Origin: Nitrosomonas sp. Nm33
Lineage (GTDB): Bacteria > Pseudomonadota > Gammaproteobacteria > Burkholderiales > Nitrosomonadaceae
Direction: 5' to 3'
Length of the DNA stretch: 64,000 nucleotides
Assembly: GCF_900107265.1 (NCBI RefSeq)
Contig: NZ_FNPJ01000009.1
Coordinates: 1 to 64,000 of the forward strand
Part shown: positions 4,678 to 43,405 of the stretch, piece after piece
Position numbering within the stretch: the stretch's first letter is position 1
Layout: each line of letters starts with the position of its first letter
Position numbers and translations under genes: made by a program
The notes under the pieces: model-generated
The model's input: only the letters and a program-made list of their open reading frames with translations
Told to the model about the DNA's origin: nothing
The model's database searches: none

Positions 4678-4688
4678 TCATTCTTTTC

Positions 4689-7785: not shown

Positions 7786-8025
7786 AGACTGATTTCTTTG
7801 TTTTACCTAATTTTTATTTGACTGAGAGTTTGATGGTGCTGATAAATGCAGCTGCAATAGATATCAGTAATCTTAAACGTACGATGCTTCTTTCTTTGTA
7901 ATAAAATGCTGATAAGAAATTATGATATTTCGTTTTAGAAATTTTATTATTTAGTTGAAATGTGACTCGGCTGATAGCAGACTCGAAAACTTATACATTT
8001 TACGTCATTATTTTATATTAGTAAT

Positions 8026-8880
8026 TCATTTCTCATTTCGATGCTCATTGGAGGGTAATTCGATCACTCCTTCAAATACTGTGGTTGCAGGACCAGTCAT
8101 AAACACGGGTTGATCTTTTCCTTCCCACTGTATCCATAAATCACCGCCATGCGTACTGACTTTGACTTTAGATGCCAGTAGACCACGTTCAATACCCGTG
8201 ACCACTGCAGCGCAGGCGCCTGTGCCGCAGGCCAGTGTTTCGCCCGCTCCGCGCTCATAGACTCGCAATTTAATGTGATGATGGTCGATGATTTGCATGA
8301 AACCTGCATTGACACGTTGAGGAAAGCGGGGATGTGATTCCATCAGTCTACCATCTGTCGATACCGCGGCATCTTCGATATCGGGTACAATCTGAACAGC
8401 ATGGGGGTTGCCCATGGAAACAGCACTAATTTCTATTTGTTTACCATTAACATTGAGTGTGTATGTCAAAGCACGTTTTTCGGCTAAAAAGGGAATATCT
8501 GCAGGTTCAAATCTAGGAATACCCATATTGACGGTCACTTCACCGTTTATTTCCAGTTTGGGGAAGATTAAGCCACTTGCTGTTTCAACACAAATTTCTC
8601 TCTTTTTGGTTAAGCTATGGTCATGCACAAAACGTACAAAACAGCGCGCACCATTCCCACATTGTTCTACCTCGCTACCATCCGCATTAAAAATCCGGTA
8701 ACAGAAATCTGCATTGCTGGTTGCTTTTTCCACAATCAACACTTGATCGCAGCCGATTCCAAAATGGCGATCAGCTAGCCAGCGAATGTTTTCAGGGGTA
8801 AGTGAGATCGTTTGATTGATGCCATCAATGACCACAAAATCATTACCTAACCCATGCATTTTGGTAAATTTTAGTTTCAT
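8026..8880 (-). CDS. dapF: Diaminopimelate epimerase
   Basis: Interconverts LL- and meso-diaminopimelate, the last step before peptidoglycan cross-link precursor and lysine. The 284 residues have the family length. Both active-site cysteines are visible, in [10 protein letters not shown] (near residue 73) and ACGTGACAA (near residue 219). The N-terminal [13 protein letters not shown] motif is also present. Cofactor-independent and cytoplasmic. The start is ATG at 8880. The upstream 340 bases separate it from the divergent EPS gene at 9223. No operon partner is visible on the minus strand. Confidence 0.96.
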
Positions 8881-9222
8881 ATAATTTTTTCCATTGATTG
8901 TGATTTTAATAATCCTAACGGGTTTAATCCTGCCTCATTTAGATCGAGAGGTTAGCACGGGACTATCGAGTTGATGTGCCATTACTTGCGGAAGGCAATT
9001 TCTTCTGTCAAATGGTAAAAAGTATCGTAGGCATGAAACTTTGATTCAAGGCTGCAGCCTAATTCTCCTCGAACAATGAAACAATAAAAATAAAGATACA
9101 AATAAATATACCCTTTGGAGAAATGATTAATTTTTTTTATTTAAAGTAGCATTGTGGAATTAGGAACAGTGAAAGCATATTGAGTTTATCTTACTTAAAC
9201 TATTTTAATTAGGAAGAGTATT
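8881..9222. other. 342-bp divergent intergenic region between dapF and the XrtA locus
   Basis: It must hold the promoters of both divergent genes. A ribosome-binding AGGAAG lies at 9211-9216, just before the TTG start at 9223. A short open stretch (8943-9044, plus) has no start and no family I can name with confidence. No sigma-54 type GG-N10-GC pair was found, and no RNA gene is seen. Confidence 0.5.
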
Positions 9223-10620
9223 TTGATTTGTGTTTATAACCATTACATTTCTAAATTTACGATATTACTTATTAGCATAGAGATGTGCTTGCTAATGATT
9301 GTTTTTTTTCTGGGGGTCGGTGTTTATTTTCATTATTTGGAGATCTTTTTTATTGATTTGCTACTTTCTCACTTACCGGGAGCCATTGTTTTTATTTTTG
9401 TAATGATTACCTGTATGGCTGCGATGGGTATGTACCAGCTAGATTCAAGGCTGGATATTGAATCTACATTATTGCGTTTGATGCCATCATTAGCCATGGG
9501 TTTTGCAATCATGACTCTGATTTTTTATCTATTTCCGGAGCTATATCTAGGTCGTGGGCTGTTGGCGATAGTGATATTACTCGCGTTATTATTAATTCTT
9601 ATAACACGTATGATCTTTTTCCGATGGCCTAATCTGGAAGTTCTTCGGTCACGTGCTCTAGTGCTTGGAACAGGAAGTGTGGCGGGAGAGCTTTTGAGTT
9701 TAGCAGAAGATAACTCAATTTTACGTAATATAGATATTGTTGGTTTTGTTCCGTTTTATGAGGAAGATCGTCATGTACCTGCTTCGGTAGTATTGTCGAA
9801 ACATAGCTCATTGCCATATCTGGTTAATCAGTACGATGTTAGCGAGATAATCATTGCAACACAGGAACGGCGAGGAGGAGGATTTCCTATTCAGGAGTTA
9901 TTGGAATGTAAGATGCATGGTATTGAGGTAACGGATATTGCTACCCTCTTTGAACGTGAGCGTGGTCAAATTCGTATGGATTCACTTTATCCAAGTTGGT
10001 TAGTGTTTGGTGGTGGTTTTGATCAAAGTTTTTTTAGAGCTACGATTAAGCGTATTTTTGATTTGCTTACAAGTCTACTACTTTTAATCGTAACACTACC
10101 AGTCATGTTACTGACGGTGATTTTTATTTTAATGGAAGATGGTAGACCTATTTTCTATCGGCAGGAAAAAGTGGGAAAAGGGGGGAAGACCTTCCTGGTA
10201 ATTAAGTTTCGCAGTATGCAAAACGATGCGGAAAAAAGTGGTCAGCCGCAATGGGGGGTAACAGACGATCTTCGTGTTACTAAAATTGGGCAGATTATTC
10301 GGAAATTAAGGATAGATGAACTCCCTCAGATTATTAATGTGCTCAAAGGAGAAATGAGTTTAGTGGGACCTCGCCCTGAAAAGCCTTATTTCGTCGATAT
10401 GCTTATTGGGGAGGTGCCCTATTACAATGTTAGGCATAGTATTAAACCTGGAATGACCGGATGGGCGCAAGTACGTTATCCGTATGCCTTTTCGGTCGAA
10501 GACGCAATCGAGAAGCTGCAATATGATCTCTACTACGTAAAGAATCACAGCTTATTTCTTGATCTCATCATACTTATAGACACTGTGGGTGTTGTTCTTT
10601 TGGGTAAAGGTGGTAGATGA
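9223..10620 (+). CDS. XrtA/PEP-CTERM system sugar transferase (EpsB-type, TIGR03013-like)
   Basis: Initiates exopolysaccharide repeat-unit synthesis by transferring a sugar-phosphate to undecaprenyl phosphate at the inner membrane. The 465 residues have four N-terminal membrane helices, a CoA-binding-like middle domain (RALVLGTGSVAGELL near residue 143), one more helix and a C-terminal bacterial sugar-transferase domain. That domain shows GRPIFYRQEKVGKGGK, FRSMQNDAE, LRIDELPQIINVLKGEMS, LVGPRPEKP and KPGMTGWAQV. The start is TTG at 9223 with AGGAAG upstream, and the opening MICVYNHYISK is the usual start of this XrtA-linked subfamily. It is followed 21 bases later by prsK, the standard order in exosortase A loci. 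Confidence 0.9.
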   Translation: MICVYNHYISKFTILLISIEMCLLMIVFFLGVGVYFHYLEIFFIDLLLSHLPGAIVFIFVMITCMAAMGMYQLDSRLDIESTLLRLMPSLAMGFAIMTLIFYLFPELYLGRGLLAIVILLALLLILITRMIFFRWPNLEVLRSRALVLGTGSVAGELLSLAEDNSILRNIDIVGFVPFYEEDRHVPASVVLSKHSSLPYLVNQYDVSEIIIATQERRGGGFPIQELLECKMHGIEVTDIATLFERERGQIRMDSLYPSWLVFGGGFDQSFFRATIKRIFDLLTSLLLLIVTLPVMLLTVIFILMEDGRPIFYRQEKVGKGGKTFLVIKFRSMQNDAEKSGQPQWGVTDDLRVTKIGQIIRKLRIDELPQIINVLKGEMSLVGPRPEKPYFVDMLIGEVPYYNVRHSIKPGMTGWAQVRYPYAFSVEDAIEKLQYDLYYVKNHSLFLDLIILIDTVGVVLLGKGGR

Positions 10621-10641
10621 CAATCAAGTACTATTTCTATA

Positions 10642-12720
10642 ATGTGGGCAACAATTACTGCGGTTAGCTATGCCACAACAGCTGTGGCTTATTTTTTCTT
10701 ATTTATCCTTTTGCTGGCGAACTGGCGTGGACACTTGTATGGGACGTTGCTGTCAATTGTTTGTATAGTTTCTGCTTTTTGGGCTGCAGCTATCGCAGGC
10801 CAATTATCCTGGGGCTTTTCATCAACTTTTCTTGTAAAAATTCTTGAAATTTTGCGCAATGCAAGTTGGTCTATATTCTTGATAGCTTTACTGAATCCTT
10901 TTCAGCAGAGGAAAGAAAATTCTGTTCCTCTGAGGATAAGGTCATCCGTAGCAGCCATAATGGTGCTTTATCTTATTTTTTTCATGCTGTCTATTTTTTT
11001 TGATAGAAATAATGGCGTCGGATTTGCTCCACTTGGTCAACCCACTTCTTACAGCACCTTTCTTACAGGTGTGATAATGGCCGTAATTGGCATAGTTCTC
11101 GTTGAGCAATATTACAGAAACATGTCATCTGAACAACGCTGGAGGATAAAATTTATCTGCCTGGGGATGGGGGGTATTTTTGTATATGATTTTTACTTAT
11201 TTAGCGATGCACTATTGTTTAGAAAAATAAATGTTGATATATGGGTTGCTCGAGGGTGGATAAACGCCTTGATTGTTCCTTTGATCGCACGCTCGGTTGC
11301 CCGTAATCCAAAGTGGTTTGTAGGAATTTCCATATCACGGCATATTTTGTTCTATACGTCTACCTTACTGGGCGCAGCCATATATTTGCTTATGATGGCA
11401 GCTGTCGGTTATTACCTCAGGCTTTCCGGTGGGGCTTGGGGAGGGATTCTACAGCTCACTTTTTTATTTGGCGCTGTTCTTCTTCTTATAATTTTACTAT
11501 TTTCTGATACCACTCGCTCTTGGCTTAAGGTATTCATTAGCAAGCATTTTTATAGCTCTAACTATGATTACCGTGAAGAATGGTTACGTTTTACACGAAC
11601 CCTTTCAGAGGGTGAATTGGAGCTAAGAGCGCGTGCAATCAAAGCGCTTGCTCAACTAGTGGAAAGTCCCGCAGGTGGATTATGGTTTAGACAGGAAAAT
11701 GGAAGATATCAATTGATTGGATGTTGGAACATTTTTCTAAAAAATGAAATTGTCGAAGCTGACAACAAATTTTGTGAATTTTTAAAAGAAAAGGCGTGGG
11801 TGATTGATTTACAAGAATTTTACTCCGACCCAAGGAAATATTCAGCCTTGGTGCTACCAAATTGGTTATCTGATATTCCAAAATCTCGATTGATTGTGCC
11901 ATTAATTTTGCATCAAGAATTGCTGGGATTCATTGTATTGATTGAACCTAGAAGTGCTATTAATTTAAATTGGGAAGTTAGGGATTTATTGAGGGTAGCG
12001 GGTACTCAGGCATCGAGTTACTTAGCGCAGTACGAAGCTACTAATGCACTCTCAATTGCACGTCAATTTGAATCTTTCAATCGTATGTCAACTTTTGTCG
12101 TGCATGATATCAAGAATCTAATTTTTCAATTATCTTTGTTACTTTCAAATGCTGAAAAGCATAAGGATAATCCTGAATTTCAGAAAGATATGGTTGAAAC
12201 GGTGAGTTTTTCGGTAAATAAAATGAAACGGATGCTTGAAAAATTAAGCACTGAAAATCAATCTGAAAAATCGGAAATTTTTTCACTTGATCAATTATTA
12301 CAGCAAATCGTGGAGAGAAAATCCTTCAATATGCCCAGGCCTACGCTTGAAATTACTCATTCAGGTTTGATGGTAAAAGCTGATTATTCTCGCCTTGAGA
12401 GAGTGATTAGTCATCTAATTCAGAATGCAATTGAAGCTACTCCTAAGAATGAGCAAGTTTGGGTTCGACTCTTAGAAAAAGATGATTCTGCTGTGATAGA
12501 AATCGAAGATACTGGGCATGGCATGAGCGAACAATTTATTCAGAAAAAGCTATTTAAACCTTTTGAGTCTACTAAAACAGCTGGTATGGGTATTGGTGTT
12601 TTTGAGAGTAAAGAATATATTAACGAACTCGGAGGGCAACTTGATGTTATTAGTCAAGAATCAGTAGGAACAACTTTCTCGATTATTTTGCCACTTTCTC
12701 AAAAAATATCAGGAAAATAA
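10642..12720 (+). CDS. prsK: XrtA/PEP-CTERM system sensor histidine kinase PrsK
   Basis: Membrane sensor kinase of the two-component pair that controls PEP-CTERM protein genes. The 692 residues show about eight membrane helices in the first 300, then a GAF-like domain (about 320-465). The phospho-acceptor region VVHDIKNLIFQL has its His at about residue 487. A C-terminal HATPase has an N-box (HLIQNAIEATP), EDTGHGM and TAGMGIGVFESKEYI. The many-helix N-terminus suggests sensing within or near the membrane. It lies between the sugar transferase and prsR on the same strand, and PrsR is its expected partner by family knowledge and neighbourhood. The signal is unknown. Confidence 0.9.
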   Translation: MWATITAVSYATTAVAYFFLFILLLANWRGHLYGTLLSIVCIVSAFWAAAIAGQLSWGFSSTFLVKILEILRNASWSIFLIALLNPFQQRKENSVPLRIRSSVAAIMVLYLIFFMLSIFFDRNNGVGFAPLGQPTSYSTFLTGVIMAVIGIVLVEQYYRNMSSEQRWRIKFICLGMGGIFVYDFYLFSDALLFRKINVDIWVARGWINALIVPLIARSVARNPKWFVGISISRHILFYTSTLLGAAIYLLMMAAVGYYLRLSGGAWGGILQLTFLFGAVLLLIILLFSDTTRSWLKVFISKHFYSSNYDYREEWLRFTRTLSEGELELRARAIKALAQLVESPAGGLWFRQENGRYQLIGCWNIFLKNEIVEADNKFCEFLKEKAWVIDLQEFYSDPRKYSALVLPNWLSDIPKSRLIVPLILHQELLGFIVLIEPRSAINLNWEVRDLLRVAGTQASSYLAQYEATNALSIARQFESFNRMSTFVVHDIKNLIFQLSLLLSNAEKHKDNPEFQKDMVETVSFSVNKMKRMLEKLSTENQSEKSEIFSLDQLLQQIVERKSFNMPRPTLEITHSGLMVKADYSRLERVISHLIQNAIEATPKNEQVWVRLLEKDDSAVIEIEDTGHGMSEQFIQKKLFKPFESTKTAGMGIGVFESKEYINELGGQLDVISQESVGTTFSIILPLSQKISGK

Positions 12721-12872
12721 GATTATTATTTTCTAAGATTAATTGTGCTCTTTTTCTTATAGAATCTAGTTCAGTGTTTCGTTCTTTTTGATGAGTGCTA
12801 ATAAACTTCATTTGATATCACGCATATTGCTCTTTGGGTGGTAATGAACATGTTGAAACGTTATACAAAAAG

Positions 12873-14231
12873 ATGAAAGCAAGTAGTAGCCAGAAAAAAT
12901 TACTCATAATTGAAGATGATCTTGGATTGCAGAAACAATTGCGCTGGAGTTTCGATAATTATGATATTTCCGTAGCTGCAGACCGAGAAAGCGCACTTGC
13001 ACAAGTTCGTCGACATGAGCCTGCGGTCGTTACCATGGATCTCGGTTTGCCGCCAGATCCTGACGGTGCTTCTGAAGGATTAGCTACCTTACAACAGATA
13101 CTTGCACTTGCGCCAGATACCAAAATAATCGTTTTGACAGGTAATCAGGATCATAGGAATGCCTTAAAAGCAATTGAATTGGGTGCGTATGACTTTCATC
13201 AAAAGCCTTATGATCCCAAGATGCTGAGTTTAATTGTTGATAGAGCCTTTTATTTGTATGGCTTGCAACGTGAAAATCGCAATCTGCTACTTTCTCAGTT
13301 GGATTCTCCAGTTTCTGGAATTATTACGCGTGATCCGGACATGATTAAAATGTGTCGTAACATTGAAAAAGTTGCGATCTCAGATGCTACAGTTATGTTA
13401 CTAGGTGAAAGCGGCACAGGTAAAGAAGTCCTGGCTAGAGCACTTCATCAGCATAGTGCTCGCAAAGAAGGACGTTTCATAGCAATAAATTGCGCTGCTA
13501 TCCCTGAGTCTCTGCTTGAGAGCGAGTTGTTTGGTTATGAGAAAGGGGCTTTCACTGGGGCAGTTAAGCAAGCACCAGGTAAAATTGAGTTAGCTCAAGG
13601 AGGCACTTTCTTTCTTGATGAAGTAGGAGATTTACCGATATCGTTGCAGGCAAAATTACTGCGTTTTCTTCAGGAGCGAGTGATTGAGCGTATTGGAGGG
13701 CGAGAAGAAATTTCCGTAGATGTACGTGTTGTCTGTGCAACTCATCAAAATCTTAAGAAGCTGATTGAAGAAGGTCGTTTTCGTGAAGATTTATTTTATC
13801 GGTTGGGTGAGATTCCCATTAAAATTCCTCCTCTTCGCAAGCGAGTAGGGGATGCAGTACTGCTGGCGCATCATTTCAAGAATAAGTTTTGCGAAAAAGA
13901 GGGACGTAATTCACTGAGCTTTAGTCAGGAAGCGTTGACTGCAATTGAGACTTACCATTGGCCAGGTAATGTTCGTGAAATGGAGAATTATATGAAGCGC
14001 ATCGTTATTATGGCAGAAGGACCGCAGATTACTCCGGCTGATTTAGGATTTCAGGAGTCAGAAATTCTATCGGAACCAATGAACTTACGTGAGGTTCGTG
14101 AAAGAGAAGAATGTAAAGCCGTGGTTAGAGCGCTAGCGAAGGTAGACGGTAATATTGCAAAGGCAGCCGAGTTGCTCGGTATTAGCCGTCCAACTTTATA
14201 TGATCTAATGAATCGACATGGCCTCAAATGA
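12873..14231 (+). CDS. prsR: XrtA/PEP-CTERM response regulator PrsR (sigma-54 activator)
   Basis: NtrC-type transcription factor with three modules. The receiver domain has the phospho-acceptor Asp at about residue 56 in VVTMDLGLP, with DD at 16-17. The AAA+ domain has Walker A GESGTGKEV, the sigma-54 contact loop GAFTGA and FLDEVGDLP. A Fis-type helix-turn-helix ends the protein (NIAKAAELLGISRPTLYDLM). Family knowledge says PrsR drives sigma-54 promoters of PEP-CTERM genes. The ATG at 12873 is chosen because homologues start just before KLLIIEDD. A TTG at 12834 would add 13 unrelated residues. No PEP-CTERM target gene lies in this window. Confidence 0.9.
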   Translation: MKASSSQKKLLIIEDDLGLQKQLRWSFDNYDISVAADRESALAQVRRHEPAVVTMDLGLPPDPDGASEGLATLQQILALAPDTKIIVLTGNQDHRNALKAIELGAYDFHQKPYDPKMLSLIVDRAFYLYGLQRENRNLLLSQLDSPVSGIITRDPDMIKMCRNIEKVAISDATVMLLGESGTGKEVLARALHQHSARKEGRFIAINCAAIPESLLESELFGYEKGAFTGAVKQAPGKIELAQGGTFFLDEVGDLPISLQAKLLRFLQERVIERIGGREEISVDVRVVCATHQNLKKLIEEGRFREDLFYRLGEIPIKIPPLRKRVGDAVLLAHHFKNKFCEKEGRNSLSFSQEALTAIETYHWPGNVREMENYMKRIVIMAEGPQITPADLGFQESEILSEPMNLREVREREECKAVVRALAKVDGNIAKAAELLGISRPTLYDLMNRHGLK

Positions 14232-14485
14232 GTAAGCTAGAGTTATTTTAAGATAATGGATAAATTGTTTATTACTCCTTAAATTTTAAAATCCTTGCTA
14301 GGGGCTCAGTAAATCTCTTCCCTTTAGTCGAAAGATGGTATCTTGTCTGAATGAAAGATTTTTATAAGTATGGAAGCCATGTAGGGTAGGTAATACACTT
14401 CATTATATGTATTGGGGTATGGCATTTACGCGAGCTTTACTACGGTAGCATTTGTGAGCAAGAGAGTGTCAGTAGAGTATTCACA

Positions 14486-16072
14486 ATGACGCATCTATTT
14501 CATGAATTGGTTTTTAATACTGCAAATCGCGGTGTTATTACTGAGGCGCTTGTGTATCAGCAGCAGAGATTGGATTATGCCACCCTGGCCCAAGAAATTG
14601 AACTTGCAGCAAATGCTTTGCTGGCTTTGAGATTGGGGCGAGGGGAGCGTCTTGCTATTTATCTTGAGAAAAGATTTGAAACAGTAATTGCCATGTTTGG
14701 TGCTTCCGCAGCGGGGGGTGTTTTTGTGCCAATCAACCCGTTGCTTAAAGCAGCCCAAGTAGCTTATATCCTTAAAGACTGTAATGTGAGGATATTAGTC
14801 ACATCAGTTGATCGATTCAATTTACTAATATCTGTTTTATCCGAATGCCATGATCTTCATGCAGTAATCGTTGTGGGATCAGCAGAAAATTTACCAGTCA
14901 TTCCAGGTATGCATGTGATTTGCTGGCAAGAAGCCATGGCCATGCCAAGATCAATCCATCCGTATCGGTGTATTGATAGTGACATGGCTGCAATCTTGTA
15001 TACTTCGGGGAGTACAGGTAAGCCCAAAGGGGTAGTACTTTCCCATCGTAATCTGGTCACTGGGGCAAAAAGTGTTTCCCAATACCTAAAAAATAATCAG
15101 GATGATCGAATTCTATCAATACTACCGCTCAGTTTTGATTACGGCTTGAGTCAATTGACGACTGCTTTTTATGTTGGGGCAACCAATGTGTTGATGAATT
15201 ATTTGTTGCCGCGCGATATTATCGATGAAGCAATCAACGAAAGCATCACTGGTCTTGCGGCTGTTCCTCCACTGTGGATTCAACTTGCTCAGTTAAAATG
15301 GGAAAAGGTTACATCACTGCGCTATATAACTAACTCGGGGGGAGCAATGCCCCGAGCAACGCTTGATAAACTTCGCTGTGCCCTCCCCAATACTAGTATA
15401 TTTCTGATGTATGGTTTGACAGAAGCATTTCGTTCGACATTTTTGCCGCCGGAGGAGGTAGGCAAACGTCCCGACTCTATTGGCAAGGCGATACCCAACG
15501 TTGAAGTATTGGTGCTGCGCGAGGATGGTTCGCAATGTGCGCCAGGTGAGCCTGGAGAATTAGTGCATCGCGGACCATTAGTATCCATGGGCTACTGGAA
15601 TGATGCTGAGAAGACAGCAAAATATTTTAGACCGCTTCTTCTATGCCAATCTGGTTTGACCATTCCAGAAATAGCTGTATGGTCGGGTGACACGGTACGT
15701 ATGGATGAGGAAGGCTTTTTATATTTTATAGGTCGTTGCGATGACATGATCAAAACTTCGGGCTACCGAGTAGGCCCTGCTGAAATTGAAGAAATTATCT
15801 ACTCAACGGAGTGTATTGCCGAAGCAGTGGCAATCGGTGTGCCGCACCCCACTTTGGGTCAGGCAATTATTGTGGTGGCGATACCGCTTGACGGGGTTCA
15901 TTTGGATCCTGAGACATTGCTATCAGCCTGCAAACGACATCTTCCCACTTTTATGGTGCCGAGTTTAATAGAGCTACGGCAAGGGCATCTACTACGTAAT
16001 CCAAATGGCAAAATTGATCGTAAAAGTATAGCTCAGGAATTTCTACATACCTTTATGCCAGTAGAAATATGA
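14486..16072 (+). CDS. Acyl-CoA ligase (AMP-forming), exosortase A system-associated
   Basis: A 528-residue adenylate-forming enzyme of the TIGR03098-like group. Motifs are the P-loop YTSGSTGKPKGVVLSH (near residue 172), LMYGLTEAFRST, and the hinge region SGDTVRMDEEGFLYFIGRCDDMIKTSGYR cut by R and D residues typical of the fold. The catalytic lysine lies in NPNGKIDRKS near the C-terminus. It would activate a carboxylic acid (fatty, aryl or amino) as acyl-AMP and then thioester; the substrate is unknown. The stop overlaps the next start by four bases (ATGA at 16069), so it is translationally coupled to the PLP decarboxylase, the standard pair in XrtA loci. Their joint product has not been defined as far as I know. 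Confidence 0.9.
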   Translation: MTHLFHELVFNTANRGVITEALVYQQQRLDYATLAQEIELAANALLALRLGRGERLAIYLEKRFETVIAMFGASAAGGVFVPINPLLKAAQVAYILKDCNVRILVTSVDRFNLLISVLSECHDLHAVIVVGSAENLPVIPGMHVICWQEAMAMPRSIHPYRCIDSDMAAILYTSGSTGKPKGVVLSHRNLVTGAKSVSQYLKNNQDDRILSILPLSFDYGLSQLTTAFYVGATNVLMNYLLPRDIIDEAINESITGLAAVPPLWIQLAQLKWEKVTSLRYITNSGGAMPRATLDKLRCALPNTSIFLMYGLTEAFRSTFLPPEEVGKRPDSIGKAIPNVEVLVLREDGSQCAPGEPGELVHRGPLVSMGYWNDAEKTAKYFRPLLLCQSGLTIPEIAVWSGDTVRMDEEGFLYFIGRCDDMIKTSGYRVGPAEIEEIIYSTECIAEAVAIGVPHPTLGQAIIVVAIPLDGVHLDPETLLSACKRHLPTFMVPSLIELRQGHLLRNPNGKIDRKSIAQEFLHTFMPVEI

Positions 16073-17304
16073 CGGCTATGCGTCCAAAACATGTTCCTAT
16101 GACGCAATATCCTGTGCGGGATAATTGTCTTCATATTGGGGGTATTTCTCTTATACGACTCACCCAACGAGTAGGTAAGACCCCTTTTTACGCTTATGAT
16201 AGACGACTGATTACTGAACGTGTCAGTTTGTTGCGTCACTGTCTGCCCCAAGAGATTCATCTTCACTATGCGATGAAAGCCAATCCTATGCCTGCTGTTG
16301 TTCAGCATTTGGCTGGGTTAGTGGATGGCATTGACGTGGCTTCTTTCGGGGAAATGAAAGTTGCATTAGACACGATAATACCTCCCGACAGGATTAGTTT
16401 TGCAGGTCCCGGAAAAAGTGAACATGAGCTTGCTTGCGCCATTGCCGCAGGTATTGTTATTAACATGGAATCTGAGCGGGAATTGGAGCGTATCGCGACG
16501 CTAGCTGAACAAATGAGTATTTGTCCTAAGGTAGCTGTTCGAATTAATCCAGATTTTGAGCTTAAATCTTCTGGAATGAAAATGGGCGGGGGAGCAAAAC
16601 AGTTTGGTATTGATGTAGAACGCGTTCCTGCTATGCTTGCTCGTATAAGCAAACTAGGATTAGATTTAGAAGGATTGCATATTTTCTGTGGATCACAGAA
16701 TCTTAAAGTAGAAGCTATTCAGGATACCCATGAGAAAACGTTGCAGTTAGGTTTGCAACTTGCACAAGTCTCGCCTGTTCCGATTCGCACATTGAATATC
16801 GGAGGAGGTTTTGGGGTACCTTATTTTCCTGGTGAAAAGCCGCTCGATCTTGTTGCGGTGGGAAAGAATTTACAACATCTATTATCTGAAGTGAAACAGG
16901 AGTTGCCCGGAACTCGCTTTGTGATTGAACTGGGACGCTACATTGTAGCAGAAGCGGGTATTTATGTATGTCGTGTATTAGACAAAAAATTATCAAAAGG
17001 ACAGGTGTTCCTAGTGACAGACGGAGGGTTGCATCATCATCTCGCTGCTTCAGGAAACTTTGGTCAAGTCATACGTAAAAATTATCCTGTGATTGTTGGC
17101 AACAAAGTGGAAACTTCTGAAACAGAAATTGCATCCGTAGTGGGTCCATTATGTACACCACTTGATTTGTTGGCAGACCAGATGGAATTGTCCAGGGCAG
17201 ATATTGGAGACTTAATTGTCATATTCCAATCTGGTGCATATGGTCTGACAGCAAGCCCAACAGCCTTTCTAAGCCATCCTGAGCCGCTAGAAGTGTTAGT
17301 TTAA
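16069..17304 (+). CDS. PLP-dependent decarboxylase, exosortase A system-associated
   Basis: A fold type III (alanine racemase-like barrel) decarboxylase of the diaminopimelate/ornithine decarboxylase family, TIGR03099-like. Its 411 residues include the PLP lysine in HYAMKANPMP (near residue 69) and the phosphate-binding GGGFGVPY. SGMKMGGGAKQFG and IELGRYIVAEAG are also seen, as is the dimer-interface substrate loop containing VVGPLCTPLD. A cysteine in GPLCTPLD matches the catalytic Cys of DapDC/ODC enzymes. It would remove CO2 from an amino acid or related acid. It overlaps the acyl-CoA ligase by four bases, which implies shared use of one pathway. The true lysA function is less likely given this coupling. 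Confidence 0.9.
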   Translation: MTAMRPKHVPMTQYPVRDNCLHIGGISLIRLTQRVGKTPFYAYDRRLITERVSLLRHCLPQEIHLHYAMKANPMPAVVQHLAGLVDGIDVASFGEMKVALDTIIPPDRISFAGPGKSEHELACAIAAGIVINMESERELERIATLAEQMSICPKVAVRINPDFELKSSGMKMGGGAKQFGIDVERVPAMLARISKLGLDLEGLHIFCGSQNLKVEAIQDTHEKTLQLGLQLAQVSPVPIRTLNIGGGFGVPYFPGEKPLDLVAVGKNLQHLLSEVKQELPGTRFVIELGRYIVAEAGIYVCRVLDKKLSKGQVFLVTDGGLHHHLAASGNFGQVIRKNYPVIVGNKVETSETEIASVVGPLCTPLDLLADQMELSRADIGDLIVIFQSGAYGLTASPTAFLSHPEPLEVLV

Positions 17305-17784
17305 TCCAGATTTTCCATACAGAGCTTTTACGCTGACGAAATGGACGCGGACCTTGACTGGTAAATCGAAAATTTTTGTCCTTTCATAATCCTTACATCC
17401 AAATCGGATACTGCACATTGTCATAGCTAAATTTAGAATGTGTTTTCGACTTTTGGCAGTGTTATAACCGATTCATGCAAAAACAAATAAACAAACGCTC
17501 TGGATAAATTTATGCAAATTCAATTTGTGTCGTTGGTCTTTGCAGGTGCTGAGGAAGATTTATGGCTCTTTCTACCTTCATTTTGTGTCAATAGTTTCAG
17601 ATACTGGCTTGGTACAGGGTTTGTAATTTGCTCGCAAATTGCCTCACCATCACCTTGCATCCTGATCAAATATTCAGTTAATAATGTTGGAATATTGGTA
17701 TAAATAAAAATATAAATTAGCGTGCCAATCCGCCTTTATGTTAATTAATTACTATTACCTTATATTTTATATATATTTTTTTTA
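17305..17784. other. 480-bp non-coding region with a possible truncated minus-strand ORF
   Basis: No recognised gene. On the minus strand, a frame open from about 17720 down to a TGA at 17520-17522 has a protein-like composition (GEAICEQITNPVPSQYLKLL, then a Lys/Ser-rich tail). It has only an internal ATG and no recognisable family. It could be the 3' end of a gene cut away during rearrangement, or chance. A plus-strand ORF at 17512-17703 over the same bases looks random. The end becomes T-rich up to the IS1595 target site. Confidence 0.3.
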
Positions 17785-35247: not shown

Positions 35248-35347
35248 TTTTTGTGGGAAGGAAAAATTTTCTTGATTTGCTTATGCAGTGAAATGCAAGC
35301 CTTGATTGAAATAAATAAAGAATTTCGATAGATATTAGGTATACCTA

Positions 35348-36205
35348 GGGTCTGTTGACGTTTTGAGATAAGTATTTCATAAATAGAAGCAAACTCGTAA
35401 TATTGAGGTGTTCTCACGCCACCAATAAAACGAGTTTGCGATGCCCCGATTGATGCTCAACGATGAGTTCTGGTCGAAGCTGGAGAAAATTCTGCTTCAA
35501 GAAGCGATTTATAACAAGCGCAATTTGCGCATGACAGTAGAAGGTATGCTATACCGAATGCGGGTTGGTTGTCCGTGGCGAGACTTACCCGAGATGTTTG
35601 GATGCTGGAATTCCATCTATAAGAGATTCAATGCTTGGTCATCCAGTAACAAGTGGAGCAGAGTTTTCAAGGCACTGATCGATGATGCGGATTGGAAGTG
35701 GGAATTCATTGACGGCAGTTATATTAAAGCGCATCAGCATAGTGCGGGTGCAGGAGGTCAAGAACCGCAGGCCATCGGGAAAAGCCGTGCGGGTAACACC
35801 ACAAAGATTCATTTGGCGGTTGATGGTTGTGGTTTACCAGTTGAGTTTGAGATTACTGGTGGAGAAGTGAATGACTGTTCTGTAGCACCGCAGCTGATTG
35901 CCAGATTACCTGATGCGCAAGCGATTGTAGCGGATAAGGGATATGACAGTGAGTGTATACGTGAGCAGATAGTAAAGAAGGGAGCCATGGCTGTGATTCC
36001 AGGAAAGCGCAATTCGTTGAAGGGTAACGCAGATATGGATTGGGGCTTGTATAGATATCGACATTTGGTGGAAAATGCTTTTGCCCGACTAAAACAGTAT
36101 CGGGCAGTGGCAACACGATACGACAAACTAAAGAGAAATTATGAAAGTATGGTTGCCATGGCATGCGGGTATCTGTGGCTACCTGTGTGAAATGTCAACA
36201 GACCC
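35348..36205 (+). mobile_element. IS5-family insertion sequence, 858 bp, apparently intact
   Basis: Left end gggtctgttgacgttt (from 35348) and right end aaatgtcaacagaccc (to 36205) are inverted copies with one mismatch. TA flanks both sides (35346-35347 and 36206-36207), the two-base duplication typical of the IS427 group of IS5. One full-length transposase frame fills the element. It lies between the HAD gene and a gene that carries an in-frame stop. Confidence 0.9.
35441..36190 (+). CDS. IS5-family transposase (IS427 group)
   Basis: 249 residues and uninterrupted. N-terminal insertion-element domain of the DUF4096 type is seen in MTVEGMLYRMRVGCPWRDLP and FGCWNSIYKRFNAWS. The DDE catalytic core is seen in FIDGSYIKAHQHSAGAGGQE (first Asp), AIVADKGYDSECIRE (second Asp) and HLVENAFARLKQYRAVATRY (Glu). 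It is placed in one frame here, whereas many IS427 elements split it. Likely an active copy; other copies elsewhere in the genome are expected. Confidence 0.93.
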   Translation: MPRLMLNDEFWSKLEKILLQEAIYNKRNLRMTVEGMLYRMRVGCPWRDLPEMFGCWNSIYKRFNAWSSSNKWSRVFKALIDDADWKWEFIDGSYIKAHQHSAGAGGQEPQAIGKSRAGNTTKIHLAVDGCGLPVEFEITGGEVNDCSVAPQLIARLPDAQAIVADKGYDSECIREQIVKKGAMAVIPGKRNSLKGNADMDWGLYRYRHLVENAFARLKQYRAVATRYDKLKRNYESMVAMACGYLWLPV

Positions 36206-36371
36206 TAATGGATAATGGACTTTATATGATTGGATTAGCTTAATATAAAATCAATGTATCATACGTATGCAAGGTTAAAGTAAAAATATAGGATATTTTT
36301 TATTGGGTGCGGTATTAAGTAAAAAATTATTTATTTACTCATTTAAACATCAAATAAGAAAGAGTCTGATC

Positions 36372-36776: not shown

Positions 36777-38172
36777 TGGATTGAACGAAATCTTTCATCA
36801 GATTTTGAGATTGCCCATTTCACATAATTGACTGACAAACTTTACTGCTACCTCAAGATTGGCGTTTGCTTTGATACTTAACGCAGCGTCAAGTCCAAAA
36901 TGGTGGTCGCGAATCCGAAGCAAAAAGTTTGTGGTGTAGTCAGTCCATACACTTCCTGATACACGCGTAACAAAGTGGATGGGGTCATGGCGCATGTATT
37001 GAGTAACTACTGTCTTTTTCTACCACTACTTCGGAACAAATAAAAGGTTCTGTATGACAAGTCTGTATCGATAAACAATAACTGATCACATTTAGTCACA
37101 TCCGTTACATGCTCAATCTGAAGCTGCATATACTTTGGCATTCAGCGTGACTGAGTCTTAATAATGAAACATGATCGATAAGACTGGGACTAAGTGCGCG
37201 TTATCGCCACGACCTGGATTACCGTAGCCAAATAGCAGTTGTCTGTACATGAGTGATGTCAAGTATACTGCTTGGAGAAATACCGGAAAAGAAAATTCAG
37301 GACTCGCTAGCTTCTTATGGTTATTCGTCGTTAGCTATCTGATATGCTGTATCACAATCCGTGGCAGTGATTTTAACAGCTTGGAGGAATGTGAGAAAAT
37401 GAATCGTTTCCAGCAAAGGGAAAACGTGGCAGCTCAGGGTAATCGATTTTATTGCAGCTTTCAATAATTTTGCATCCATGATGTTGATTAAAATCACAAA
37501 TATCTCAAAATTATTGATAAACGCGATCCAGTTTCACATTACGTCATTCTGAACACCAAACTGATCTCCCTCCAGTTGCCTCTTGTGGCGGTTAAATCAA
37601 TTCGGCTACTTGCTGGTGAATACTGAATTGATTAATGCTGAGGTTCAGGTTTTACAGATATAAAGAATCAGAGAGCAGTATCGTGTTATACCCAATATTT
37701 ATCTAATCTATTTTTTCCTCTCAGAGCAATATTCCATTTTTGCATCCACGATATCCAACTCCGACACTCAGAACAATTCCTTTTCGAGTATTTAAGGGAT
37801 GGATTGTATTCCAATACATTATTGCCTACCTATTTGCTATTCTTTAGTATCGTCTTGCAAGCTAAACAGATTCAGTGTGAATTATTGCAGTGGACACTTT
37901 AAAATCCGACACTGCTGATTTGTAAAATTTCCTGTTTATTTGTTTTATCAAACTTTGTTTCTAGATCAAATTAAAGATTCTGCTTATTTTAATTTTCTTA
38001 AAGAAAGAATAACTTTTAATGTGGCAAAGTGAAGTCTAGTATAACTAATCATTGTAGCATTACTAATACATCAAATTTATGATTATAAAATTTAGATTAA
38101 AAGTTAAAATTTTATTGAAATGGAATCAATAATATGACTGTTGTTATAAAACAACACATAATTAATATAACC
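36777..38172. other. About 1.4 kb without a credible gene
   Basis: Stops are frequent in all frames and composition is AT-rich. A minus-strand frame at 36798-36995 (65 codons, with LLRIRDHHFGLDAALSIKAN) and a plus-strand frame at 37249-37467 (72 codons, cysteine-containing end GNRFYCSFQ) have some protein-like character. Neither has a clear ribosome-binding site or a family I recognise, so they may be remnants. No tRNA, integrase or CRISPR repeat is visible. The zone separates IS5 debris from the lipid operon. Confidence 0.45.
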
Positions 38173-38200
38173 TTGACAGGAAAATCACCCTTACTATAAG
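38173..38200 (+). promoter_or_regulatory. Sigma-70-type promoter upstream of the lipid operon
   Basis: TTGACA (38173-38178) and TATAAG (38195-38200) are separated by 16 bases and match the consensus at 6 of 6 and 4 of 6 positions. They lie about 160 bases upstream of the acyl-AMP ligase start at 38364, leaving a leader of about 155 bases. It is the best promoter-like pair in the gene-poor region. Confidence 0.55.
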
Positions 38201-38363
38201 CTCCTTCGTCAACGGATATGAGACAGTTGTATTTTATAAGCAACGAAAAATAGAAGCGTATGGATGATTATCTAACGCATTGATAAAGAATGTCTTTGGG
38301 GATTATTGCGTTAAAATGGTTTTAGAATAAGATGACCAGCACCATTACTTCGAGGGGAAGATC

Positions 38364-40193
38364 TTGAGTTCGACAATAATTACGCTGGGGGGTCCGCTAA
38401 TGCAAGAATCTGATACTCAGCCTTCAAACAAATTGTCAATGGCAGCGACGCCTACAGCTAATACGCTGCCTCAGCGATTAGCAGATTTTGATACGCTGAC
38501 TGACGCGTTGGAGTATGCAGCAAACGGAGCGACAGGATATAATTTTTATGATGCAAAAGGGGGGCTACGATCAGTACTTTCCTATAGTGCACTTAAACAA
38601 CGCGCGCGTACGGCTGCTCGTCGCTTATCTAGTTTGGGGTTGGTGCGCGGAGATCGTGTAGCACTAATTGCTGATACAACACCTGAGTTTATTGAGTTGT
38701 TTTTTGCATGTCGTTATGCAGGACTCGTTCCTTTTGCAATGCCAATACCAGTTAACCTTGGTAGTCATGCAATATATGTTCGACAATTGCGCAGTATGCT
38801 TGAAAGTAGTCAAGCAAGTATTGCAATAGCTAATCTTGATTTTGTTGGTTTTCTTGAAGAAGCTGCTGAAGGTTTAGGCACTGATCATTTGCAATGGGTC
38901 GGAACACCAAGTCAACTTGATTTGCTCCCAGAGATAGAAGTGACTTTTCAACCCAACTCTCCGGAAGAAACTGCTTATTTACAATTTACTTCAGGTAGTA
39001 CACGAATGCCCCGCGGAGTCGTTATAACAGAACGGGCTTTGATGTGTAATCTTCGTGGGATAGTACGCAACGGATTAGAAGTGGGCGCAAGTGATCGTTG
39101 TGCTTCTTGGCTTCCGTTTTATCATGATATGGGTTTGGTAGGTCTCGTATTGTCACCAATGGCTGCACAGTTATCAGTGGATTATCTGGCAACACGAGAT
39201 TTTGCAATTAGACCACTGCAATGGTTGAAATTGATTAGCCGTAATCGATGTACTATTGCTTTTAGCCAGCCGTTTGGCCTTAAACTTTGTGCATTAAGAG
39301 TTCGTGAGTCAGATTTGAAGGAGCTTGATCTAAGCTGTTGGCGTGCAGCGGGTATCGGGGCTGAAATGATTCGGCCAGATATTTTAAGAAACTTTGCAGA
39401 TAAATTTTCTGCAGCAGGTTTTGATGAGCGTGCCTTTTTACCTTGTTATGGTTTGGCGGAATCTACTCTTGCTGTATCTTTTTCGAAGATTAAGCAGGGT
39501 GTGATAAGCATACAAGTCGATACCAAAACATTGGTAGAAAAGAAAATGGCAGTTCGGGTACAAGCAAAAGGTAGAAAATTTAATGAGTTTGTCAATTGTG
39601 GCCAACCACTTCCTGAGCATACGGTTAAAATTGTTGATGATAATGGGGGAGAGTTACCTCAGATGATGGTTGGAAGTGTTTTAGTCCGGGGGGATAGCAT
39701 TATGACCGGGTACTTTAATAACCATGAAGAAACCAATAAAGCACTAAAGCCAGGAGGCTGGCTTGATACAGGTGATATTGGATTTATTCTGGAAGGCGAT
39801 TTGTATATTACGGGACGTCGCACTGATGTCATTATTGTTAACGGCCGAAATATTCGCGCTCAAGATATAGAAGAACTTGCTGAACAACAACCTGAAGTAA
39901 GATCACGCGAAGCATCAGCTTTTGGAATTAGTGGATCTGATGATACAACAATCGTCGTATTAGTTGTTGAATGCCGTTTAACCTCAGTGGAGGAAAGACA
40001 ATCACTCATGAGTCGACTACAACAAATGGTTTATATGGCTTTTGGTGTTAACTGCCTGGTTGAGTTAGTGCCGCCTCACACGCTGCCAAGAACATCATCT
40101 GGTAAACTGTCACGTTTTGCAGCACGTCAAGGGTTTCTTCAACGTGCAAATATAACTGATCAGATATCCGTAGTTCAGTCTAGAGACAGATAA
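38364..40193 (+). CDS. Fatty acyl-AMP ligase / acyl-ACP synthetase-like enzyme
   Basis: 609-residue adenylate-forming enzyme. Motifs: LQFTSGSTRMPRGVVITERA (P-loop), WLPFYHDMGLVGLVLSPM (typical of fatty acyl-AMP ligases), CYGLAESTLAVSFSK, LDTGDIGFILEGDLYITGR and the catalytic Lys in PRTSSGKLSRFA. The FAAL type usually passes the acyl chain to an acyl carrier protein rather than CoA, and an ACP gene lies two genes downstream. The start is TTG at 38364 with GAGGGGAAG upstream, or ATG at 38400. First gene of a tight four-gene operon. In Caulobacter a similar synthetase, ACP, reductase and serine palmitoyltransferase serve ceramide synthesis, so a role in loading a long acyl chain for that purpose is inferred. 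Confidence 0.87.
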   Translation: MSSTIITLGGPLMQESDTQPSNKLSMAATPTANTLPQRLADFDTLTDALEYAANGATGYNFYDAKGGLRSVLSYSALKQRARTAARRLSSLGLVRGDRVALIADTTPEFIELFFACRYAGLVPFAMPIPVNLGSHAIYVRQLRSMLESSQASIAIANLDFVGFLEEAAEGLGTDHLQWVGTPSQLDLLPEIEVTFQPNSPEETAYLQFTSGSTRMPRGVVITERALMCNLRGIVRNGLEVGASDRCASWLPFYHDMGLVGLVLSPMAAQLSVDYLATRDFAIRPLQWLKLISRNRCTIAFSQPFGLKLCALRVRESDLKELDLSCWRAAGIGAEMIRPDILRNFADKFSAAGFDERAFLPCYGLAESTLAVSFSKIKQGVISIQVDTKTLVEKKMAVRVQAKGRKFNEFVNCGQPLPEHTVKIVDDNGGELPQMMVGSVLVRGDSIMTGYFNNHEETNKALKPGGWLDTGDIGFILEGDLYITGRRTDVIIVNGRNIRAQDIEELAEQQPEVRSREASAFGISGSDDTTIVVLVVECRLTSVEERQSLMSRLQQMVYMAFGVNCLVELVPPHTLPRTSSGKLSRFAARQGFLQRANITDQISVVQSRDR

Positions 40194-40199
40194 TCTTAG

Positions 40200-41120
40200 A
40201 TGTCACAAGTAGTGGCAGTAACGGGCGCTACTGGGTTTATTGGTCGAGCATTGCTTGATGCTCTACTAGAAAATAAGTGGAAAATTCGCGCATTAACTCG
40301 GAAGTTCTCATCTGTAGAACGAGAAAATCTAGAGTGGGTACATGGAGACCTGGATAACTATAAGTCGTTACAACGACTTGTTACAGGGGCATATGCAGTT
40401 ATACATTGTGCTGGTGCGGTAAGAGGTAGCTCTTTAGAAAGTTTTTTACATAATAACGTAGTGGGTACAGATAATCTACTGCGTGCAGTCATTGAGCAAA
40501 ACTCAACTCCTCGTTTCCTTTTTATATCATCTCTGGCGGCAAGAGAATCAAAACTCTCATGGTATGCAGCTAGTAAATTTAAAGCTGAGCAACTAATTAA
40601 TAATTATTTAGACAATATACCTTGTACGATCTTCCGTCCTGCAGCTGTATATGGTCCCGGTGATAAAGAGCTTCGACCACTCTTTAAGGCAACTTACTAT
40701 GGAGTACTGCCATCAATCGGTGATTTGACTAATCGTTTCGGAATGTTGCATGTTAATGATTTAGTAGCAGCAATCCATTACTGGTTGAGCATTGATAAAC
40801 CTATTAGAGGAACCTTTGAGATTGATGATGGTACACCGGGTGGTTATAGCTATCGATTAGTGGCGGCTATTGCACAAGATATTTTAGGGAGACCTGTTAG
40901 ATGTATTAGGTTGCCTGAATCAATGCTCCAATTAATTGCTAATGCTAATTTGTGGATATCCCGATTATTAGGCTATTCACCGATGTTGACTCCTGGAAAA
41001 ATATGCGAATTACAGCATCCCGACTGGGTTTGCGATATAGCACCTCTGAAGCGAGCCCTAGTGGGCTGGTATCCTAATTATCGTCTCTGTGATACATTGC
41101 CACAATTGATTAAACTCTGA
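40200..41120 (+). CDS. NAD(P)-dependent epimerase/dehydratase-fold reductase (CerR-like candidate)
   Basis: 306 residues of the extended SDR family. The nucleotide-binding TGATGFIGRALLDAL is at residues 8-22, followed by VHGDLDNYKSLQ and VIHCAGAVRGSS. The catalytic Tyr and Lys are in WYAASKFKAEQL, and FRPAAVYGPGDKEL closes the substrate side. It starts 6 bases after the ligase and lies 16 bases before an ACP gene. Reduction of a 3-oxo lipid such as 3-ketosphinganine or 3-oxo-ceramide would fit the neighbourhood, as with CerR of Caulobacter. This specific role is inferred from context, not from a diagnostic motif. Confidence 0.83.
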   Translation: MSQVVAVTGATGFIGRALLDALLENKWKIRALTRKFSSVERENLEWVHGDLDNYKSLQRLVTGAYAVIHCAGAVRGSSLESFLHNNVVGTDNLLRAVIEQNSTPRFLFISSLAARESKLSWYAASKFKAEQLINNYLDNIPCTIFRPAAVYGPGDKELRPLFKATYYGVLPSIGDLTNRFGMLHVNDLVAAIHYWLSIDKPIRGTFEIDDGTPGGYSYRLVAAIAQDILGRPVRCIRLPESMLQLIANANLWISRLLGYSPMLTPGKICELQHPDWVCDIAPLKRALVGWYPNYRLCDTLPQLIKL

Positions 41121-41136
41121 GTTTTTTAATTAACCA

Positions 41137-41394
41137 ATGGTAGAAATGAGCCAAGAAGAGATTCTGCATTTATTATGTCAACGCTTAGCAAGCTTTACAA
41201 ATACGGAAGTGGAAATTACGCCAGAGACAAATCTTATTACGCAATTGGCAATCGATTCCATAAAATTATTGAATCTTATTATGGAATTAGAAGATAACTT
41301 TGATATTTCTATACCGCTAAATGCACTCACAGATGTGCTCACTGTGCGTGATCTTGCTAATTTGATTTACAAAATCAAGTCTGATTCAAAATGA
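41137..41394 (+). CDS. Dedicated acyl carrier protein
   Basis: 85 residues with the phosphopantetheine serine at about residue 41 in LAIDSIKLLNLIMELE and the usual four-helix pattern to NLIYKIKSD. It is distinct from the fatty-acid-synthesis AcpP at 49375-49620, whose serine region is [12 protein letters not shown]. The stop overlaps the start of the AOS-family gene (ATGA at 41391), which suggests that the carrier delivers an acyl chain to that enzyme. SpoT/AcpR-type carriers play this part in bacterial serine palmitoyltransferase clusters. Confidence 0.9.
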   Translation: MVEMSQEEILHLLCQRLASFTNTEVEITPETNLITQLAIDSIKLLNLIMELEDNFDISIPLNALTDVLTVRDLANLIYKIKSDSK

Positions 41395-42578
41395 ATTTAT
41401 TAGAAAAACTTGATACAGCTGCCGCAGCTAGAAAAGCACAATTACCAACTGGATTAAGTGCTTTTGGAATACCTATAGAAGAAATCTATTCTCCAACAGA
41501 AGCAAGAATAGGTGAGCGTCGGATTCTGCTTCTTGGCACCAATAATTATCTGGGGCTTAGCTTTGCCCCGGAATGTCGAGAAGCAGCGCATGAAGCCATA
41601 GATACTGAAGGGACAGGGACCACCGGTTCTCGAATGGCAAATGGAAATTATTCGGGACATCGTGCACTTGAAATGGAGTTTGCAGAATTTTACCAATGTC
41701 GATCATGTATCGTTTTTACAACAGGGTATCAAGCTAATCTTGGAACGATTTCAGGATTAATAGGTGCAGGTGATGTAGCACTTATTGACGGTGATTCTCA
41801 TGCAAGTATTTATGATGGATGTATTCTAAGTGGAGCCGACATCATTCGCTTCCGGCACAATGATATGGTAGATTTAGAAAAACGTCTTCGACGATTGGGC
41901 GATCGTAGCAAAAATACACTCATTATTGCTGAAGGTATCTACAGTATGCTCGGTGACCAAGCACCTTTAGCTGAAATTATAAACTTAAAAAAAACTTATA
42001 ATAGTACTTTGCTCCTTGATGAAGCACATTCACTTGGCGTTTTAGGTGAAACTGGGCAAGGTTTGGCTGAAAAGACCAAACTTAGCAGCGAAGTTGATTT
42101 TATTACAGGTACATTTAGTAAAAGTTTATGTGGCATAGGTGGTTATTGTGTCAGTAATCATCCACAACTTGATCAGTTGCGTTATGTGAGTCATCCTTAT
42201 ATTTTTACAGCTTCACCTTCGCCAGCTACCATCGCAGCAACACGTGCGGCTTTAAGATTGGTCCGTAATGGCAGTAAATTACGTGAACAGCTTTGGAGAA
42301 ACGCACAGCAACTCTATTCCCATCTAAAAATGGTCGGTTATCAAGTTGGTCCAGAACCTGGGCCTGTAGTAGCAACTATATTAGATAATCCACAGCAGGC
42401 ATTAGCCTTGTGGAACGGCTTGTTGGAGAATAATATTTACGTCAACCTGATTCTTCCTCCAGCTGCACCTGAAGGTAAATCATTAGTTCGGTGCAGTGTA
42501 AATGCAGCGCATACTACCGAGCAAATTAAGCATGTTTGTCAAACTTTTTCTATGTTGCATGCATCAATTATTCAGTGA
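41391..42578 (+). CDS. spt: Alpha-oxoamine synthase, serine-palmitoyltransferase-like
   Basis: 395-residue PLP enzyme of the KBL/AONS/ALAS/SPT family. The PLP lysine is K244 in TGTFSKSLCGIGGY. Other marks are GTNNYLGLSF, EGTGTTGSRMANGNYSGHR, LIDGDSHASIYDG, EGIYSMLGDQAPL and the cofactor-stacking LLDEAHSLGVLGETGQG. It would condense an amino acid with an acyl thioester while releasing CO2. No other biotin gene (bioA, bioB, bioC, bioD) is nearby, and the ACP, acyl ligase and reductase upstream favour SPT over biotin BioF. A CqsA-like autoinducer synthase is another option. Gene symbol is a proposal. Confidence 0.82.
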   Translation: MNLLEKLDTAAAARKAQLPTGLSAFGIPIEEIYSPTEARIGERRILLLGTNNYLGLSFAPECREAAHEAIDTEGTGTTGSRMANGNYSGHRALEMEFAEFYQCRSCIVFTTGYQANLGTISGLIGAGDVALIDGDSHASIYDGCILSGADIIRFRHNDMVDLEKRLRRLGDRSKNTLIIAEGIYSMLGDQAPLAEIINLKKTYNSTLLLDEAHSLGVLGETGQGLAEKTKLSSEVDFITGTFSKSLCGIGGYCVSNHPQLDQLRYVSHPYIFTASPSPATIAATRAALRLVRNGSKLREQLWRNAQQLYSHLKMVGYQVGPEPGPVVATILDNPQQALALWNGLLENNIYVNLILPPAAPEGKSLVRCSVNAAHTTEQIKHVCQTFSMLHASIIQ

Positions 42579-42658
42579 AGAATTTCTTAGAACTATTTAG
42601 CATGCTGCAGAACAATATGCTATCTTCCGATTGGCTATAAATTAGTCCTTCTCACTTT

Positions 42659-43405
42659 ATGCATGACTGGATTACTCCAAATTGGCCATCGCCCTCAAAT
42701 GTTAAAGCAATTTTTACTACCCGAAAGGGCGGCGTAAGTAGAAACAGAAATGGTACTTACGCAGAATTAAATTTAGGTGATCATGTACATGATGATCTTT
42801 TATCAGTACAACAGAATCGCGCATTGCTACGTCAATATTTGCCGAATAATCCATGCTGGTTGAAACAAGTTCATGGAGCAAGGCCAGTATGGGTGGACAA
42901 GAATGTAGTAGAACTTGAAGGTGACGCGGCATTGAGTCGTTGTAGCGGGAAGGTGTGTGCAATATTGGTGGCAGACTGTTTACCAATATTTCTATGTGAT
43001 ACAGCAGGCACTGTTGTAGGTGTTGCCCATGCCGGCTGGCGAGGGTTAGCTAGCGGAATAATCGAAAACTCTATTTCGGAAATGGCTTGTAAGAGTTCTA
43101 AAATTATTGCGTGGCTGGGTCCCGCAATTGGTCCTAAGCATTTTGAAATCGGAGAAGAAGTACGGGAAATATTTTTGAAGCAAGATAGCAAATCTAGTTT
43201 CGCTTTTACTCCTGGTCAAAGTGGTAAGAAATGGTTTGCTGATTTATTTATATTAGCGCGGCAACGATTAACAGATGTTGGTGTTACTAAAATTTATGGC
43301 GGTTATGAATGTACTTTTAGTAATCCATCAAGGTTTTATTCTTATCGCCGGGATGGCCAGACAGGTAGAATGGCAGCACTGATTTGGCTAACCAATATAG
43401 CTTGA
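42659..43405 (+). CDS. pgeF: Peptidoglycan editing factor PgeF / YfiH family (DUF152, multicopper-polyphenol oxidase-like)
   Basis: 248 residues with the metal-site motifs LKQVHGARPVWVD, ILVADCLPIFLCD and VGVAHAGWRGLASGI, whose His and Cys residues form the conserved zinc-binding centre. Members act on purine nucleosides or prevent L-Ser mis-incorporation into peptidoglycan stems. It is monocistronic, 80 bases after the AOS gene. It probably is not part of the lipid operon. Start ATG at 42659. Confidence 0.9.
   Translation: MHDWITPNWPSPSNVKAIFTTRKGGVSRNRNGTYAELNLGDHVHDDLLSVQQNRALLRQYLPNNPCWLKQVHGARPVWVDKNVVELEGDAALSRCSGKVCAILVADCLPIFLCDTAGTVVGVAHAGWRGLASGIIENSISEMACKSSKIIAWLGPAIGPKHFEIGEEVREIFLKQDSKSSFAFTPGQSGKKWFADLFILARQRLTDVGVTKIYGGYECTFSNPSRFYSYRRDGQTGRMAALIWLTNIA

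Follow-up and report, generated by a model that had tools for sequence, protein, structure and literature searches.

Four plus-strand open reading frames (ORFs) at positions 38364-42578 of the window, by which we mean the whole 64,000-nucleotide stretch of contig NZ_FNPJ01000009.1 of Nitrosomonas sp. Nm33 analysed here, lie close enough together to be read as one operon, and the locus raises the questions of what these genes (aasR, cerR, acpR and spt) make and how this lineage came by them. Broadly, we read the operon as making the sphingoid base from which this Nitrosomonas, a close relative of N. communis, forms ceramide, with a ceramide synthase (CerS) encoded on another contig of the genome, C55, completing the N-acylation, and we give this reading a probability of roughly 0.92. 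An earlier note on the window had likened the operon to the central part of the bacterial route to ceramide, a likeness that is strengthened by the serine palmitoyltransferase (SPT) cut-off that the spt product passes, by its position in a tree, and by the finding of a CerS elsewhere in the genome.

The operon and the family of its synthase

The ORFs follow one another with gaps of 6 and 16 bases and, between acpR and spt, an overlap of 4 bases (a gap of -4). The phosphopantetheine serine of AcpR lies within QLAIDSIKLL and the pyridoxal phosphate (PLP) lysine of SPT within GTFSKSL, and the spacings and residues that the earlier note listed are borne out by the ORF positions, these residue contexts and the family models of Table 1. 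All five ceramide proteins of the genome, CerS included, are 42-53% identical to those of the yghO-aasR-cerR-acpR-spt-lptG-lptF cluster of E. coli BL21(DE3) (ECD_RS14825-14855), with 48% for the aasR product, 45% for CerR and its positional counterpart, 42% for AcpR over 65 residues and 53% for SPT; in BL21, however, cerS is adjacent and divergent, and the cluster continues with other genes. The four-gene arrangement is not a product of chance, because the same genes recur in the same order and on one strand in 57 of 66 loci retrieved with the synthase; the others are eight distant synthases and one partial locus (L097), which has three operon genes before its contig ends within spt. To judge from their labels, the 58 operon loci belong to Nitrosomonadaceae or to loosely labelled metagenome-assembled genomes (MAGs; L045, L066, L096 and L099). 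It appears that cerR evolves fastest among the four, its median identity to relatives over the 57 loci being 55%, as compared to 76% for aasR, 67% for acpR and 79% for spt.

As a member of the alpha-oxoamine synthase superfamily, the spt product could be imagined as a CqsA-like autoinducer synthase or as a BioF, in which case the operon would make a signal or a biotin precursor. It is detectable with the BioF model TIGR00858 (332.9 bits) and with the CqsA/LqsA-type autoinducer synthase model NF005526 (217.6 bits), but misses the cut-offs of both (426.45 and 428 bits, respectively), and both scores are far below the 578.9 bits with which it passes the curated NCBIfam equivalog cut-off of 500 bits for serine palmitoyltransferase, NF047599, a model on which the BL21 SPT scores 599.2 bits. 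The KBL model was missed as well, and in the profile scoring of 41391-42578 that the earlier note had proposed, only the SPT cut-off was passed among the SPT, BioF, KBL and CqsA-type models. In a tree of 57 alpha-oxoamine synthase rows, for which 15 of the 57 close-relative loci were picked by hand and L004 and L015 (the window's own gene) were omitted, 25 SPT rows of the beta/gamma type, including the window protein and the BL21 SPT, form one clade (100/100); the earlier note had named a BioF or CqsA placement as the contrary outcome, and the tree instead groups the synthase with the BL21 enzyme. Family labels were assigned to 10 proteins of the tree or of the residue table described below, and the rows labelled BioF (L003, L021 and L036) and KBL (L022 and L028) fall in a separate clade, L003 being the genome's own BioF, which is above its cut-off at 447.2 bits. 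BioF and KBL are ruled out as identities by both the profile scores and the tree; since the tree has no CqsA row, CqsA is ruled out by profile score only. The synthase is also accompanied by a dedicated acyl carrier protein, by AasR and by CerS, and its best-matching solved structures are the SPTs 2x8u and 2jg2, with which it has the PLP lysine, an aspartate and two histidines in common. Judged by its scores and its place in the tree, the window synthase is a serine palmitoyltransferase of the beta-proteobacterial type, and a role for the operon in signalling or in biotin synthesis is barely conceivable.

The ceramide synthase locus and the spread of both loci in the family

With the BL21 protein YghO, the published CerS (aca) homologue in passages of PMC9386255, as the query, a single match was found in the window's genome (G000:C55:7209-8315; 49% identity, E 3e-128). 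The likely start codon of this cerS, from its ORF, is the ATG at 7167, and our later CerS query began at position 7107. The genome therefore has all five genes of the rhodobacterial ceramide pathway, four in the window and cerS on C55, which settles the point that the earlier note had left to a genome-wide search when it placed the N-acylating enzyme outside the window. Searches of the genome with the Pfam families FemAB_like (PF04339) and Acetyltransf_6 (PF13480) as probes for a ceramide synthase gave no match; as probes they mislead, since YghO itself has no match to any model of Pfam or NCBIfam at E 0.001. A second CerS-type gene, 37% identical, accompanies the main one in two genomes of the same genus (G193:C18 and G226:C10).

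The genes 3' of cerS encode two LptF/LptG permeases, a CDP-alcohol phosphotransferase, a DAGK-type kinase, a Tam41-type nucleotidyltransferase and a DUF2959 lipoprotein, and all except the last resemble, by domain type only, the list given for the Caulobacter phosphosphingolipid cluster in part of PMC11324152. A DUF2959 lipoprotein gene follows genes of phosphosphingolipid type at L108 (14184-14831) and L149 (9451-10065), and its product may be an undescribed partner. L149 is also the relative in which cerS, lptF2, lptG2, the other genes named above and aasR-cerR-acpR-spt stand together in one stretch of eleven genes and 16 kb (1830-17693), which ties the operon and the cerS locus into one pathway. 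By hand count, over 0.4 Mb separates the operon from the cerS locus in 12/12 single-contig genomes of the family.

The operon synthase is near-universal in the 125 genomes of the family that were examined: SPT is over the cut-off in 119, CerS is present in 120, and the two occur together in 118. In the class, only nine of 185 drawn genomes are over the SPT cut-off, the window's own included. Nineteen class genomes were tested for CerS, which was found in 9/9 with a strong SPT match (eight over the cut-off and the near-miss G110), the CerS-type matches of G134 and G110 being only 27-28% identical, and in 0/10 with a best SPT match of 322 bits or less, these ten having been taken from low handle numbers and not at random. 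Farther afield, a MAG of Endomicrobium (Elusimicrobiota; L102, 604-2888) has an SPT-type gene followed directly by a CerS-type gene, with 34% identity.

The proposed pathway and its weighing

The scheme that we propose joins gene identities, order, conservation, co-occurrence, active-site residues and the presence of CerS, as observed here, to reactions, a head group and an export route that are modelled on work with Caulobacter and E. coli BL21. AasR would convert a free fatty acid to acyl-AMP and then load it onto AcpR, and SPT would condense acyl-AcpR with serine to yield 3-oxo-sphinganine. CerR is predicted to reduce the keto group and the CerS/YghO homologue on C55 to perform the N-acylation, with the reduction coming either before or after it, an order that is disputed according to passages of PMC11087976. 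Other genes on C55 would then add a phospho head group and export the product by way of a second LptF/LptG pair. Because cerS is followed by this second pair and by genes resembling those for a CDP-alcohol phosphotransferase, a ceramide kinase and a nucleotidyltransferase, the end product is probably a phosphosphingolipid that is exported to the outer membrane.

Several points weigh against the operon as a source of ceramide. At the thresholds used, one or both of the two genes are missing from seven of the 125 genomes of the family: G191 has SPT alone, G190 and G212 have CerS alone, and G201, G223, G240 and G303 have neither; G201 has an SPT fragment under the cut-off, and among the seven only G240 is more than 90% complete (91%). 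Neither of two further proteins of the BL21 cluster, ECD_RS14875 and ECD_RS14865, had a match in the genome of the window, in searches that had no positive control. A measurement of sphingolipids in ammonia oxidisers was not found in open-licence PubMed Central, as covered by titles and the starts of abstracts. Finally, the SPT lacks an arginine of the Sphingomonas enzyme: the equivalent of Arg378 is Leu355 in the window protein, and the arginine is likewise absent from 57/57 close relatives in the residue table (which omits L097, with its cut spt).

This last point calls for a closer look at the active site. The window SPT aligns over residues 2-387 to 2jg2, a structure of the Sphingomonas paucimobilis type, and, with the 2jg2 numbering taken from the alignment, the equivalents of its His159, Asp231, His234, Lys265 and Arg390 are kept as His137, Asp210, His213, Lys244 and Arg367. 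Lys244 and Asp210 are the PLP lysine and the aspartate, and His137 and His213 are the stacking and pairing histidines. The PLP lysine, the aspartate and the two histidines are also kept in the BioF/KBL rows, and they do not discriminate between families. The loop that reads PPATP in 2jg2, in which Arg378 stands, reads PPAAP in the window SPT with a leucine at the arginine position, and in this group of SPTs that position holds Leu, Val, Ile or Met, the second arginine (R390, here R367) being kept. The roles of R378 and R390 in the Sphingomonas SPT are described in portions of PMC3794620 and PMC11906848, the former of which has Arg378 binding the carboxylate of serine.

One could suppose from the missing carboxylate-binding arginine that the synthase condenses another amino acid, such as alanine or glycine, with acyl-AcpR and that the operon makes sphingoid bases of the 1-deoxy type or some other amino-ketone lipid, and (1-deoxy)ceramides are indeed discussed for bacteria in part of PMC11334938. 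The R378 equivalent is, however, also absent from the BL21 SPT (ILPP) and from 8/8 other class members over the cut-off, and the BL21 enzyme formed a 3-oxo-sphinganine-like product from labelled serine, as passages of PMC9386255 describe. The loss of R378 thus does not disqualify the window enzyme, since an SPT with the same loss is active with serine, and R378 is not definitive of this SPT subgroup. His137, Asp210, His213, Thr241, Lys244 and Arg367 are, moreover, kept in the window protein and in 57/57 close relatives. We regard the use of another amino acid as improbable and retain serine as the predicted substrate and ceramide as the predicted outcome.

Flanking DNA, inheritance and known relatives

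Table 1. Features of the operon and its upstream region (window coordinates)
Feature	Position	Strand	Description	Basis
aasR	38364-40193	+	acyl-AcpR synthetase of the fatty acyl-AMP ligase type, 609 aa, TTG start	NF006624, 872.5 bits (cut-off 600)
cerR	40200-41120	+	extended short-chain dehydrogenase/reductase (SDR), predicted (keto)ceramide reductase, 306 aa	PF01370 (Epimerase)
acpR	41137-41394	+	dedicated acyl carrier protein, 85 aa, phosphopantetheine Ser41	PF00550 (PP-binding)
spt	41391-42578	+	serine palmitoyltransferase, 395 aa, PLP Lys244	NF047599, 578.9 bits (cut-off 500); tree; active-site alignment
Promoter	38173-38200	+	probable sigma-70 promoter: TTGACA (38173-38178), 16-base spacer, TATAAG (38195-38200)	hexamer conservation
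Leader frame	38332-38367	+	putative; MTSTITSRGRS, 11 codons; TGA overlaps the aasR TTG start	ORF and aligned segments
IS5-family element	35346-36207		18-base inverted ends (94% complementary); transposase at 35441-36190	

The claim of the earlier note that the operon has its own promoter gains support from the conserved TTGACA-N16-TATAAG, both hexamers of which are identical in 52 of 59 aligned upstream segments, the window included (with a spacer of 15 bases in 46 of them and 16 in six). A generic promoter scan counts against this point, having found fewer sites than in shuffles (9 vs 14.1) and not listing the conserved promoter, because the last base of its -10 hexamer is not T. The start codon of aasR, TTG, is unchanged in 58 of the 59 segments, again with the window included. 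In 21 loci of other Nitrosomonas (e.g., L049, L051 and L055) a frame ending at the aasR start runs for exactly 42 codons from its ATG, and in loci of the N. communis group, N. eutropha and named Nitrosospira the leader frame has 11 codons or is missing. The 42-codon frame has a pN/pS of 0.81 (0.75 for the first 31 codons), as compared to 0.51 in the opening 40 codons of aasR, and because constraint is weak and the length is 11 codons or none in several groups we make no coding claim for the leader. Rfam gave nothing at the gathering threshold over 37600-42800.

The earlier note had also suggested that the operon, with its eroded flank, may have been acquired. A recent horizontal transfer into this lineage would sit well with the sporadic occurrence of SPTs over the cut-off in the class, with the insertion sequence (IS) element upstream, and with SPT-type relatives of 53-54% identity on plasmids of Pseudomonas, Rahnella, Klebsiella and E. 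coli, but it is opposed by the presence of the synthase in nearly all genomes of the family. The SPTs of the Nitrosomonadaceae are also one clade (100/99), within which Nitrosospira/Nitrosovibrio separate from Nitrosomonas; the G+C content of the operon (41.2%) is ordinary when set against 42.1 +/- 2.5% in 4.2-kb windows; and the flank pgeF-ZIP-GT is one that the window has in common with the N. eutropha and N. mobilis loci. The IS5-family element is a multi-copy one: the scoring of 40 out of 52 candidates gave at least 35 matches, full or partial, across the genome, counting the element itself and two further full-length copies, and many of these matches lie at contig ends. We read the DNA that separates it from the promoter as lineage-specific and not as the scar of an operon transfer, since this zone is partly common to N. 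communis relatives. Old vertical inheritance fits the order of the genes, the downstream flank, the base composition and the tree; a recent acquisition is not supported and seems to us very improbable, while an old one, by the ancestor of the family, may still have taken place. In five of the six plasmid records with SPT-type genes (H1-H6), the annotation under the match includes a carrier protein.

The operon of the window is not a new system, because the same operon with a distant ceramide synthase has been published for N. eutropha, at least in the relevant passages of PMC9386255 and PMC11324152; it is that system in another Nitrosomonas. N. eutropha C91 has aasR-epi(cerR)-acpR-spt as the consecutive genes Neut_0458-0461, in the same order as here, with aca/CerS likewise at a distant locus, Neut_1100 (PMC9386255), and at least 13 of 17 Caulobacter cluster genes have good orthologues in that species, spread over three regions (PMC11324152). 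The window SPT is about 81-82% identical to those of the N. eutropha strains Nm57 and Nm24, the strains that were compared, but Nm33 belongs to another species and its upstream flank differs and holds the IS element. The ceramide/CPG2 cluster of Caulobacter crescentus (CC_1168-CC_1152) is alike, by its published description and by the domain types found here, in its five ceramide genes, LptF2/LptG2 and genes of kinase, nucleotidyltransferase and CDP-alcohol transferase type, and differs in being a single 17-gene region, as opposed to the two separate regions found here.

What is added is that one published N. eutropha example becomes a near-universal trait of the 125 genomes examined from a family of key nitrifiers, and in the literature covered as above we met no account of the presence of ceramide genes throughout this family. 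We would lay even odds on the broader proposition that nearly the whole betaproteobacterial family of ammonia oxidisers builds a phosphosphingolipid and exports it via a second LptF/LptG pair, with the DUF2959 lipoprotein as an undescribed partner and with SPTs that lack the loop arginine of Sphingomonas, and that these lipids have seemingly never been sought. Should the lipids themselves bear this out, nitrifying biomass would be expected to contain sphingolipids, which could be used as a marker.

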